64,000 nucleotides of DNA. Origin: an uncultured Clostridia bacterium. GTDB taxonomy: Bacteria > Bacillota > Clostridia > Oscillospirales > Ruminococcaceae. Below the pieces are notes generated by a model. That model was given only the letters and a program-made list of their open reading frames with translations, did not search any database and had not been told where the DNA came from. The translations under genes were made by a program, and so were the position numbers. The stretch spans positions 1 through 64,000 of the forward strand of contig CANQPX010000003.1 in NCBI GenBank assembly GCA_947625915.1, written 5' to 3'. Positions 16,518 to 49,727 of the stretch are shown here, piece after piece (positions within the stretch are counted from its first letter, which is position 1; every line of letters begins with the position of its first letter).

Positions 16518-18626
16518 TCAAACTCTGAAAAGAAGATCCGCATATGTCGGGAACGGCCACATCTTTTCGGGAGCGATAGTCTCCAGTTCATCAACTACGG
16601 CTCTAAGTGACTGCATTGCAGCAAAGATAACGTCTCTGTAGTATCTTGCAGCAGGTTCGCCTTCCTCGTAATTCTTTACTTCAAGCAGTTTGCTGTCAAG
16701 AGCATCGGTAGCTTCAAGAATACTGTTTGTCAGACCGGAAGCCTTGTCAATAAGGGCTTTTTCCGCATCGAAATTAACTCCAAGCGATTTCTTTGCCACC
16801 ATTGAATCAGCAAGGCTCTTGGTGAATTCCAGTCCTGCGGGAATGATCTGCTTTCTTGCCATGTCGACCATTGTAAGAGCTTCGATATTGATGATCTTGG
16901 AATAGTTTTCAAGGAGTATCTCCTGTCTGGACTCGATCTCGGTCCTTGTAAGAACTTTGAATTCCTCAAAGATAGCAACGTTCTTATCATCTGAATAGTG
17001 CGGAACGGCGTCAACGGTGGAAACGAGGTTCGGAAGTCCTCTCTTCTTGGCTTCTTCGATCCAAGAATCATCATAACCGTTGCCGTTGAAGATGATCTGC
17101 TTGTTTTCCTTGATAGTATCGATAAGCAGCTTGTTGAGATCGGAAGAAAAATCCTTGGAATTTTCAAGCTTGTCGGCAAATTCTTTCAGAACGTGTGCAA
17201 CGATCGTGTTAAGTATCATATTTGTGCAGGCGATGGAATCCGCAGAACCGAGTGCTCTGAACTCGAACTTGTTTCCGGTGAAAGCAAAAGGCGAAGTCCT
17301 GTTTCTGTCGGTGGTATCTTTCGGGAAGTTAGGAAGTGCGTCAACGCCGATAACAAATTCCTTATCTTTGTTTGTGGTTATCATCTTTCCTGTTTCCAGA
17401 GCGTCAAGTATAGTCTGGAGCTCATCGCCGAGGAATATGGAAACTATTGCGGGAGGCGCTTCGTTTGCGCCGAGTCTGTGGTCGTTGCCCGCAGAAGCTA
17501 CTGAAAGTCTCAGCAGATCGGAATAATTGTTTACAGCTTTGATGACTGCAACAAGGAATGTAAGGAATTGAATGTTGTCCTTGGGATTTTCGCCGGGATC
17601 GAGAAGGTTCTGACCGTCATTTGTGGAAATAGACCAGTTATTGTGCTTACCCGAACCGTTTACGCCCGCGAAAGGCTTTTCGTGGAGCAGACATACCAGA
17701 CCGTGTTTGAGAGCGGTCTTTTTCATTATCTCCATGGTAAGAGCGTTCTGATCGGCAGCAACGTTTGAAGTTGCAAAAATTGGAGCAAGTTCATGCTGCG
17801 CGGGAGCAACTTCGTTATGCTTTGTCTTGGCAAGTATGCCTAATTTCCAGAGTTCTTCGTCAAGGTCTTTCATGTAAGCGAAAACTCTCTCCTTGATGTT
17901 TCCGAAATAGTGATCTTCCAGTTCCTGACCCTTGGGGGCTTTCGCACCGAAAAGCGTTCTTCCTGTAAGGATAAGATCGCGTCTCTGATCGTAAAGCTTC
18001 TTGTCAACAAGGAAATATTCCTGCTCGGGACCGACTGTTGTTGTAACTCTTGTAGCGGTAGTATTTCCGAAAAGTCTGAGTACGCGGATAGCCTGCTCGG
18101 AAACAACGTCCATCGAACGGAGCAGCGGAGTTTTCTTATCGAGGATCTCGCCTGTGTAAGAGCAGAAAGCTGTAGGAATGTACAGCGAGCCGTCCTTAAC
18201 GAAAGCGGGAGAAGTAGGATCCCAAGCGGTGTAACCTCTTGCTTCAAATGTTGCTCTCAGACCGCCCGAGGGGAAAGAAGAAGCGTCCGGTTCGCCCTTG
18301 ATGAGTTCTTTTCCGGAAAATTCCATAATAACTTTTCCATCGCTTGTAGGCGAAATGAAAGAGTCATGTTTTTCGGCTGTGATGCCTGTCATGGGGTGGA
18401 ACCAGTGAGTATAGTGGGTAGCTCCCTTTTCAACAGCCCACTCCTTCATGGAATTTGCGATAACTTCCGCAACGTCAACGTCCAGTGCAACGCCCAGTTC
18501 CTGAGTTTTCAGCAAAGACTTATACACGTTTTTCGGAAGTCTTTCTTTCATGGTCTCCTTGTTAAAAACGTTGCAGCCGAAATATTCGGGAACGCTTTTA
18601 ACTCCCTGATTTACTGTTTCTGACAT
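16518..18626 (-). CDS. glnN: Type III glutamine synthetase (GSIII)
   Basis: 702 aa; 'HYTHWFHPMTGITAEKHDSFI', 'SFPSGGLRATFEARGYTAWDPTSPAF', 'HEKPFAGVNGSGKHNNWSIS'. Confidence 0.96.
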   Translation of the reverse strand: MSETVNQGVKSVPEYFGCNVFNKETMKERLPKNVYKSLLKTQELGVALDVDVAEVIANSMKEWAVEKGATHYTHWFHPMTGITAEKHDSFISPTSDGKVIMEFSGKELIKGEPDASSFPSGGLRATFEARGYTAWDPTSPAFVKDGSLYIPTAFCSYTGEILDKKTPLLRSMDVVSEQAIRVLRLFGNTTATRVTTTVGPEQEYFLVDKKLYDQRRDLILTGRTLFGAKAPKGQELEDHYFGNIKERVFAYMKDLDEELWKLGILAKTKHNEVAPAQHELAPIFATSNVAADQNALTMEIMKKTALKHGLVCLLHEKPFAGVNGSGKHNNWSISTNDGQNLLDPGENPKDNIQFLTFLVAVIKAVNNYSDLLRLSVASAGNDHRLGANEAPPAIVSIFLGDELQTILDALETGKMITTNKDKEFVIGVDALPNFPKDTTDRNRTSPFAFTGNKFEFRALGSADSIACTNMILNTIVAHVLKEFADKLENSKDFSSDLNKLLIDTIKENKQIIFNGNGYDDSWIEEAKKRGLPNLVSTVDAVPHYSDDKNVAIFEEFKVLTRTEIESRQEILLENYSKIINIEALTMVDMARKQIIPAGLEFTKSLADSMVAKKSLGVNFDAEKALIDKASGLTNSILEATDALDSKLLEVKNYEEGEPAARYYRDVIFAAMQSLRAVVDELETIAPEKMWPFPTYADLLFRV

Positions 18627-18655: not shown

Positions 18656-18703
18656 AAAAAAGGCGCCTTGGCAGACAGTTTACCCGTCCGTCAAAGCGTC
18701 TTT
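18656..18703 (-). terminator. Leader terminator/attenuator upstream of GSIII
   Basis: RNA: AAAGACGCTTTGACGGAC-GGGTAAACT-GTCTGCCAAGGCGCCTTT followed by a T-run; 16 of 18 stem positions pair (2 wobbles, 2 A.C mismatches). Lies between promoter and SD. Confidence 0.75.
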
Positions 18704-18708
18704 GCTTT
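18693..18708 (-). promoter_or_regulatory. Hexaloop hairpin AAAGC[AAAGAC]GCTTT competing with the GSIII leader terminator
   Basis: 5-bp perfect stem, 6-nt loop with A1 and G4; overlaps the 5' strand of the terminator. Confidence 0.6.
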
Positions 18709-18730
18709 TCAAACTTTTAACTATGTATAC

Positions 18731-18759
18731 ATTATACAACGGTTTTTCCTGTTTGTCAA
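18731..18759 (-). promoter_or_regulatory. Consensus sigma-A promoter for GSIII
   Basis: TTGACA-N17-TATAAT on the minus strand. Confidence 0.85.
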
Positions 18760-47790: not shown

Positions 47791-47819
47791 TTGACATTCC
47801 GACGAAAATGTCATATAAT
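47791..47819 (+). promoter_or_regulatory. Consensus sigma-A promoter of amt-PII
   Basis: TTGACA-N17-TATAAT. Confidence 0.88.
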
Positions 47820-47832
47820 ATAAACATAGAAA

Positions 47833-47876
47833 ACAGCAAGGGTGCTGTGAGTAAATTGCAAAGGCGCAGTTTACTT
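47833..47876 (+). promoter_or_regulatory. Dual-hexaloop RNA motif, candidate ANTAR-protein antitermination target
   Basis: P1 ACAGC[AAGGGT]GCTGT (47833-47848) and P2 GAGTAAATTGC[AAAGGC]GCAGTTTACTT (47849-47876). Both loops are 6 nt with A at position 1 and G at position 4. Confidence 0.75.
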
Positions 47877-47890
47877 ACAGTACCCTTTTT
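47838..47890 (+). terminator. Attenuator terminator in the amt leader, mutually exclusive with P1
   Basis: AAGGGTGCTGTGAGTAAATTGC/GCAGTTTACTTACAGTACCCTT with G-U wobbles, ending TTTTT; its lower 5' strand is the P1 loop plus P1 3' strand. Confidence 0.85.
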
Positions 47891-47930
47891 GTATTTCTTA
47901 AATTTCCCAATATTTTAGGAGGGGTAAAAT

Positions 47931-49727
47931 ATGGACGCAAATATACTTGACACCATTGCTTCCGAAGTCAACAGCGGAGTGTTCTCCATATGGTATCTTA
48001 TAGGAGCGGCACTGGTATTCTTCATGCAGGCTGGCTTCGCAATGGTAGAAACAGGCTTCACAAGAGCCAAAAACGCGGCTAACATCATCATGAAGAACCT
48101 TATGGACTTCTGTATAGGTGTTCCGATGTTCATTCTGATAGGTTTTGGACTTCTCATGGGAGAAGATGTTCTGGGATTTATCGGAAAACCCGGTTTTGAC
48201 ATTTTCACAGCATATGAAAATTTCGACTGGTCATCATTCGTATTCAATATGGTTTTCTGTGCAACTACGGCGACTATCGTTTCCGGCGCAATGGCTGAAA
48301 GAACAAAGTTCCTTTCATACTGCGTATATTCGGGCGTTATAAGTGCGCTGATATATCCTATCGAAGCACACTGGATCTGGAACCCCGATGGCTGGCTCGC
48401 ACAGCTTGGTTTCCATGATTTTGCGGGTTCATGCGCTATCCATATGGTAGGCGGTATCTCTGCTCTTATCGGCGCAAAGATCCTTGGTCCACGTATCGGT
48501 AAGTTCGTTACCGACAAAAAATCCGGCAAGGTAACTAAAGTAAATGCTATCCCCGGTCACTCACTTACACTCGGCGCACTGGGCTGCTTCATTCTCTGGT
48601 TCGGTTGGTACGGATTTAACGGTGCTGCCGCAACAACTCCCGCGCAGCTTGGTTCTATCTTCCTTACAACAACTGTCGCTCCTTCCGTTGCAACGGTGGT
48701 ATGTATGATATTCACTTGGATAAAGTACAAAAAACCTGATGTTTCAATGTGTCTGAACGCGTCTCTTGCAGGACTTGTAGGAATAACCGCAGGCTGTGAC
48801 GTTATGGACGCGGCAGGTGCCTGCGTAGTCGGCGCGGTATCGGGTCTGCTGGTAGTATTCGGCGTATGGCTCCTTGACCATGTACTTTACATCGACGACC
48901 CTGTAGGTGCGGTTGCGGTACATATGATGAACGGCATATGGGGAACAGTTGCTGTAGGACTTCTTGCAAACCCCGCAGTTCCCGAATACGGTATCGCAAA
49001 CAAAGCAGGCGAAACCATAGGCGGTCTGTTCTACACAGGTAATGCTGAACTTCTCGGCTTACAGTGCCTTGGTGTACTGACAGTTGCAGCATGGACAGCA
49101 GTTGCTATAACGATAACATTCTTAATTATAAAAGCAACTATCGGTCTCCGTGCTTCCGTTGAGGAAGAAACAAGAGGTCTGGATATCACAGAACACGGTC
49201 TTGCTTCTTCTTATGCAGACTTTATGCCTGCTCTTAATGCAAACAATATCGCAGTATTTACAGGAGCAACAACTTCCGAAACAGCTCCCGCACCTGTTGC
49301 TGCGGCAGTTCCCGTAACAGTTTCGGAAAGACCTCATATAGAGAGACTTTCCGACGCAAAGAACAAGTATACCAAAGTTTCCGTTGTCTGCAAACAGAAC
49401 AAGTTTGAAGATCTCAAACGTGAACTCGGCGATATCGGCGTAACAGGTCTGACGGTAACTCAGATACTCGGCTGCGGAACTCAGAGAGGCGCAGGAGAAA
49501 TGTACCGTGGTGTTCCCGTTGAAACGACGCTGCTGCCTAAGGTAAAGGTAGAAGTAGTTGTCTGCAAAGTTCCTGTTGAGACGGTAGTCGAAGCCGCAAG
49601 AAAGGCATTGTATACCGGTCATATCGGCGACGGAAAGATATTCGTTTACGATGTTGAGGACGTAATAAGAGTAAGAACAGGCGAAAGCGGTTACGATGCA
49701 CTTCAGGACGCCGAAGAAGATCAATAA
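47931..49727 (+). CDS. amt: Ammonium transporter fused to a C-terminal P-II (GlnB/GlnK) domain
   Basis: Amt motifs ('GFAMVETGFTRAKNAANIIMKN', 'HDFAGSCAIHMVGGISALIGA') followed by P-II ('VTGLTVTQILGCGTQRGAGEMYRGVPVETTLLPKVKVEVVV...GHIGDGKIFVYDVEDVIRVRTGE'). Confidence 0.95.
   Translation: MDANILDTIASEVNSGVFSIWYLIGAALVFFMQAGFAMVETGFTRAKNAANIIMKNLMDFCIGVPMFILIGFGLLMGEDVLGFIGKPGFDIFTAYENFDWSSFVFNMVFCATTATIVSGAMAERTKFLSYCVYSGVISALIYPIEAHWIWNPDGWLAQLGFHDFAGSCAIHMVGGISALIGAKILGPRIGKFVTDKKSGKVTKVNAIPGHSLTLGALGCFILWFGWYGFNGAAATTPAQLGSIFLTTTVAPSVATVVCMIFTWIKYKKPDVSMCLNASLAGLVGITAGCDVMDAAGACVVGAVSGLLVVFGVWLLDHVLYIDDPVGAVAVHMMNGIWGTVAVGLLANPAVPEYGIANKAGETIGGLFYTGNAELLGLQCLGVLTVAAWTAVAITITFLIIKATIGLRASVEEETRGLDITEHGLASSYADFMPALNANNIAVFTGATTSETAPAPVAAAVPVTVSERPHIERLSDAKNKYTKVSVVCKQNKFEDLKRELGDIGVTGLTVTQILGCGTQRGAGEMYRGVPVETTLLPKVKVEVVVCKVPVETVVEAARKALYTGHIGDGKIFVYDVEDVIRVRTGESGYDALQDAEEDQ

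Follow-up and report, generated by a model that had tools for sequence, protein, structure and literature searches.

Antitermination of nitrogen genes by ANTAR-domain proteins is known from NasR, which acts on nasF in Klebsiella, and from AmiR in Pseudomonas. NasR senses nitrate via a NIT domain. About 400 ANTAR RNAs are known in Firmicutes and Proteobacteria (PMC8164766) and, as early as 2012, such RNAs were predicted to precede genes for amt, PII, glutamine synthetase and glutamate synthase (Ramesh, PMC3369931). In Enterococcus faecalis, the eut leaders recognized by EutV contain hairpins with a six-nucleotide loop bearing A1 and G4 ahead of an intrinsic terminator. An upstream recruiting hairpin, also termed P1, lies clear of the eut terminator and a second hairpin overlaps it, and both hexaloops are required in vivo (PMC3369931, PMC8934654). 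The structure of EutV suggests one dimer per hexaloop; the minimal binding motif was redefined as one hexaloop, and bioinformatic work on natural cases was called for (PMC8934654).

We analyzed a 64-kb stretch of DNA, hereafter the window, from an uncultured member of the Ruminococcaceae. It carries, before an amt-PII gene, a leader that resembles those of eut: A1/G4 hexaloop hairpins stand ahead of an intrinsic terminator, and the 13-mer of eut, AGCAANGRRGCUY, is almost identical to the core of P1 observed here, AGCAANGGYGCUG. This leader also belongs to the same gene classes as the RNAs of 2012 and is, like them, associated with a terminator. Since ANTAR RNAs on amt and PII genes had been predicted at that time, the amt-PII leader alone is a further case of a known kind. 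The layout is nevertheless different from that of eut: in the present leaders, it is the first hairpin, located where the transcript begins, that excludes the terminator, and P2, if present, constitutes the terminator's tip. The set of 2012 was chosen for a dual motif whose P2 overlaps the terminator, and one-hexaloop leaders fall outside that model (PMC3369931). Judging from the sequences, the one-hexaloop, terminator-overlapping form and the missing aspartate of the putative regulator are what sets the predicted regulon apart from the known ANTAR systems. In the open-licence literature, we found nothing relevant on an ANTAR regulon in Ruminococcus-type bacteria, nor any description of a one-hexaloop, terminator-excluding form prevailing across a family together with a receiver devoid of Asp.

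Architecture and folding of the amt-PII leader

A preliminary description of this DNA had placed a consensus promoter, two hairpins P1 and P2 and a terminator within 47791-47930, and all of them were recovered there, on the plus strand. The promoter, as read in the sequence, consists of a -35 box TTGACA (47791..47796), which is kept in the genus leaders, and a -10 box TATAAT (47814..47819) after a 17-nt spacer. About 13 nt further, the P1 hairpin ACAGC[AAGGGT]GCTGT (47833..47848) pairs 47833-47837 with 47844-47848 around the loop AAGGGU (47838-47843), which displays A1 and G4. P2 (47849..47876, core TTGC[AAAGGC]GCAG) carries the loop AAAGGC (47860-47865), again with A1 and G4, and its proposed extension to 11 bp, G-U pairs included, is confirmed (47849-47859/47866-47876). 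The linker between P1 and P2 measures 7 nt to the 4-bp P2 core and 0 nt with P2 extended, as compared with 5-12 nt in eut. The intrinsic terminator, of 21-22 bp (47839..47890, including the U-run 47886-47890), pairs 47839-47859 with 47866-47886, and its lower 5' strand is made of the P1 loop and the P1 3' strand. Downstream, the ribosome binding site AGGAGGGG is read at 47917..47924, also on the plus strand, and is followed by the amt-PII fusion gene (47931..49727, plus strand), in which Ammonium_transp and P-II share one 598-aa ORF. Matches of similar length and coverage to this fused protein are widespread in Clostridia.

The segment 47825-47930 folds with a minimum free energy (MFE) of -44.4 kcal/mol (z = -8.5), and 0 of 200 shuffles was as good. 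The P1+P2 fold reaches -19.1 kcal/mol vs -34.3 kcal/mol for the 21-bp terminator. When the transcript is lengthened in silico, P1+P2 is the MFE structure until 47879, and from 47881, just before the U-run, the terminator ousts P1, which bears out the claim that the two are mutually exclusive. The alternative fold as first proposed had to be refined on one point: P1 does exclude the terminator, but the P2 pairs are identical to the upper terminator stem, so that P2 overlaps the terminator yet is compatible with it, and only P1 is truly an alternative to it.

When both strands of the window were searched with GC-closed stems of at least 4 bp, the dual A1/G4 hexaloop of this leader was the only one obtained; order-1 Markov sequence would yield 0.03-0.17 on each strand by chance. 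The amt-PII gene is present in 18/21 genomes of the genus and the leader in 16. These 16 leaders score 62-77 bits with a P1/P2 model that was itself built from 15 of them, and both A1/G4 pairs are conserved in 16/16. In the alignment of the 15, the P1 stem and positions A1, A2 and G4 of both loops are invariant; the rest of both loops and the outer P2 stem are variable, the latter with compensatory changes. The P1+P2 fold leaves 92.6% of the alignment cells paired, and shifting the partner by 1-3 columns brings this down to 17-49%. Five pairs show double changes in this fold and seven in the terminator fold.

A second leader before glnA-III and its relatives in the family

When type III glutamine synthetase was sought across the genus, another leader came to light in the same window, overlooked in the preliminary description. 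It spans 18656-18759 on the minus strand, with a -35 box TTGACA (18754..18759), a -10 box TATAAT (18731..18736) after a 17-nt spacer, a hexaloop hairpin AAAGC[AAAGAC]GCTTT (18693..18708) and a terminator (18656..18703, U-run 18661-18656) that absorbs the hexaloop and its 3' strand. The gene that follows, glnA-III (16518..18626, minus strand), encodes a 702-aa type III glutamine synthetase (GSIII_N, 3.1e-81). No second A1/G4 hexaloop was seen in this leader, whose sole hexaloop is the terminator-excluding one. Among the 18 glnA-III leaders of the genus, only two weak, chance-like matches to a second hexaloop were obtained, both in other species; the loop reads A-A-N-G-R-C in 18/18 and the stem AAAGC/GCTTT changes to GAAGC/GCTTC. 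With the amt and glnA-III leaders combined, P1 covaries at 2 of its 5 pairs, 100% of the cells being paired. Three nearly complete genomes of the genus (G003, G006 and G008) possess the ANTAR protein and no amt-PII gene, and have kept the glnA-III leader.

At the family level, leaders were sought with the pattern promoter-(2-14 nt)-ACAGCANNGNNGCTG. It was found in 92/249 genomes of the family and in 51 of 299 genomes sampled from the order, the reversed control giving 0 in both cases. The genes lying after 100 distinct leaders, labelled by N-terminal motifs read in the translations and not by per-gene profile searches, were 40 amt, 40 glnA-III, 9 asnA and 7 glnA-I, together with one argG, one purC, one lactate dehydrogenase and one false match; three amt genes that the script had returned as "other" were reassigned by eye. 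A match before an ABC-F-like ORF (L295) was judged false, as no downstream terminator pairing was present. The leaders before purC, lactate dehydrogenase and argG have the same form and each occur in a single relative (L204, L205, L307).

In all the script-classified leaders (93/93), the 3' arm of the terminator pairs with the loop and the 3' strand of P1. Loop positions left free by the pattern are still conserved: A at position 2 in 93/93, G at position 5 in 87/93 and C at position 6 in 78/93. P1 starts merely 2-14 nt past the -10 box, too close for a recruiting hairpin to fit in between. Twelve leaders, all of them amt leaders from six genera, possess a second A1/G4 hexaloop (2.7 expected by chance over all 93), as do 0/56 of the family glnA and asnA leaders. 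When 80 amt loci were scanned under a strict two-hairpin requirement, just 4 were retained, most relatives having one hexaloop. The dual hexaloop initially put forward is therefore present here but not typical, since family leaders are mostly single-hexaloop and keep only the hairpin that excludes the terminator.

The ANTAR protein and its association with the leaders

A genome-wide search for ANTAR regulators, on which the preliminary description had staked its reading, returned exactly one protein (E 3.5e-16), of 188 aa. In agreement with the statement that the window encodes none, its gene sits on another contig (L010:9727-10293, minus strand), where it closes a split glutamate-synthase operon and adjoins dapF. 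A scan of this operon detected no A1/G4 hexaloop leader. Pfam recognizes the ANTAR domain (PF03861) only, with 57.9 bits for a cut-off of 27.3, and the closest solved relatives are Rv1626, EutV (7.9e-5) and NasR (4.4e-4). Where NasR has its NIT domain, a degenerate receiver-like domain is here fused to ANTAR. Unlike EutV, the regulator lacks the phospho-acceptor Asp: the receiver-like N-terminal half has Asn at the position of EutV D54, and of 52 homologues, 39 have N and 2 have D at this position. Classical phosphorylation is thus unlikely as the activation route. The gene neighbours suggest that a glutamine synthetase, glutamate synthase or PII signal could be involved. Of five EutV RNA-contact residues compared, taken from PMC8934654, K149, E160 and M172 are kept in 52/52 homologues, Y164 is replaced by His in 51/52, and R142 is not conserved, being mostly Val or Ile.

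ANTAR was detected in 21/21 genomes of the genus and in 187/249 of the family. It is present in 91/92 leader genomes vs 96/157 others (Fisher p 1.3e-13 by genome) and in 51/51 leader genera vs 38/64 others (p 2.5e-8), these statistics ignoring phylogeny beyond the genus tally and counting reduced genomes among the ANTAR-negative ones. The sole leader genome showing no ANTAR (G248) is 83% complete. Gene linkage was also observed, as 32 of the 70 leaders with listed ANTAR coordinates are no more than about 10 kb away from the ANTAR gene. For example, the order is glnA-I, ANTAR, leader-amt at L322 and glnA-I, ANTAR, leader-glnA-III at L323; at L320, leader-glnA-III is divergent from a glutamate-synthase operon, with ANTAR further downstream on the same strand. 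Altogether, the single ANTAR gene, its presence throughout the genus and the strong co-occurrence in the family argue for the ANTAR reading of the preliminary description, and control of the leaders by ANTAR appears well supported at the sequence level.

One could imagine that the terminator/antiterminator switch is real and that P1 is held by a factor other than ANTAR, such as glutamine synthetase, a PII protein or a small molecule. Such a holder would be compatible with a receiver-like domain devoid of phospho-acceptor Asp (N in 39/52) and with leaders that mostly contain one hexaloop. However, what has been conserved in the free loop positions is exactly the ANTAR hexaloop, ANTAR accompanies the leader in 91 of 92 genomes and no Rfam family matches the window or the 12 loci searched at gathering level, which makes a non-ANTAR holder improbable.

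Proposed switch and its extension to the order

We propose, with a probability that we put at roughly 0.86, that the amt-PII leader is a transcription-attenuation switch operated by the single ANTAR protein of the genome. Transcription would begin immediately ahead of P1. In the default state, the RNA would first form P1, followed by P2; right before the U-run, P1 would be ousted by the 3' arm of the terminator, so that transcription would stop. The active ANTAR protein would bind the A1/G4 hexaloop of P1, perhaps also that of P2, and with P1 so held the lower terminator stem could not form. The leftover P2 hairpin, which ends 9 nt ahead of the U-run, should not terminate, and read-through would allow the ammonium transporter-PII fusion to be made. 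The start of the amt RNA would thus very probably be a switch kept open by an RNA-binding ANTAR protein; we infer in this way the binding, the antitermination and an activation under nitrogen shortage. The same protein should control glnA-III via its one-hexaloop leader, and one hexaloop would have to suffice in most family leaders. Several points count against this proposal: R142 of EutV is not conserved, only two clear targets and one weaker candidate were found in this genome, and EutV needs both hexaloops in vivo (PMC3369931, PMC8934654) whereas the glnA leaders have one.

P1 and P2 could also belong to a strong attenuator that acts constitutively and reduces amt expression without any regulator, the terminator being far more stable than P1+P2 (-34 vs -19 kcal/mol). 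We hold this for very unlikely, because a plain terminator needs neither a separate P1 hairpin, nor compensatory changes, nor loop bases invariant across genera and genes. As for chance hexaloops inside an ordinary terminator, single A1/G4 hexaloops are easily found in any genome, but this idea is hardly tenable given 92/249 genomes vs 0 in the reversed control and one dual hexaloop for 0.03-0.17 expected in the window, and it is already refuted by the conservation of the leader in 16 species.

Coming back to the ANTAR switch, we are inclined to extend it to the whole order of these anaerobic Firmicutes, although with less assurance than for the amt-PII leader. The genes amt, glnA-III, glnA-I and asnA would there be under natural one-hexaloop ANTAR antiterminators, in which a single hairpin at the transcript start itself excludes the terminator. 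The reader would be an ANTAR protein whose receiver-like domain is not phosphorylatable and whose gene lies next to glnA or glutamate synthase, and the two-hexaloop form would be a minority elaboration confined to amt. If true, this natural regulon would represent the single-hexaloop use sought by the authors of the EutV structure (PMC8934654). It bears on whether one hexaloop is enough for antitermination, a question raised by EutV itself, for which the structure indicates one dimer per hexaloop yet two hexaloops are required in vivo. Within one genome, the two-hexaloop amt-PII leader and the one-hexaloop glnA-III leader, with a single ANTAR protein, form a matched pair for testing this. In abundant gut and rumen anaerobes, ammonium uptake and assimilation may be controlled via an ANTAR protein that is not switchable by the usual Asp phosphorylation.

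In the host genome, a looser promoter-plus-core pattern gave 3 sites (reversed control 0), namely the amt-PII leader, the glnA-III leader and, on contig C43, a third and weaker one. A short loose pattern was uninformative in this genome, and weak matches to the R1 model (E 0.02-0.5) were treated as noise. Rfam returned nothing at gathering level on the window and 12 loci, and one sub-threshold miRNA match was taken as chance. The third candidate leader (L400:953-1100, near 14952 of C43) was not seen in the other genomes of the genus; it contains CGCAGC[AAAGGC]GCTCCG, which includes a C-C mismatch and is followed by a terminator, and precedes a circularly permuted ATP-grasp/Alpha-E operon. Finally, some amt leaders (L033, L021, L036, L029 and similar ones) display past the first terminator an extra hairpin, CAC[AAAGGG]GTG or CAC[AATGGG]GTG, which is perhaps a second attenuator in tandem.
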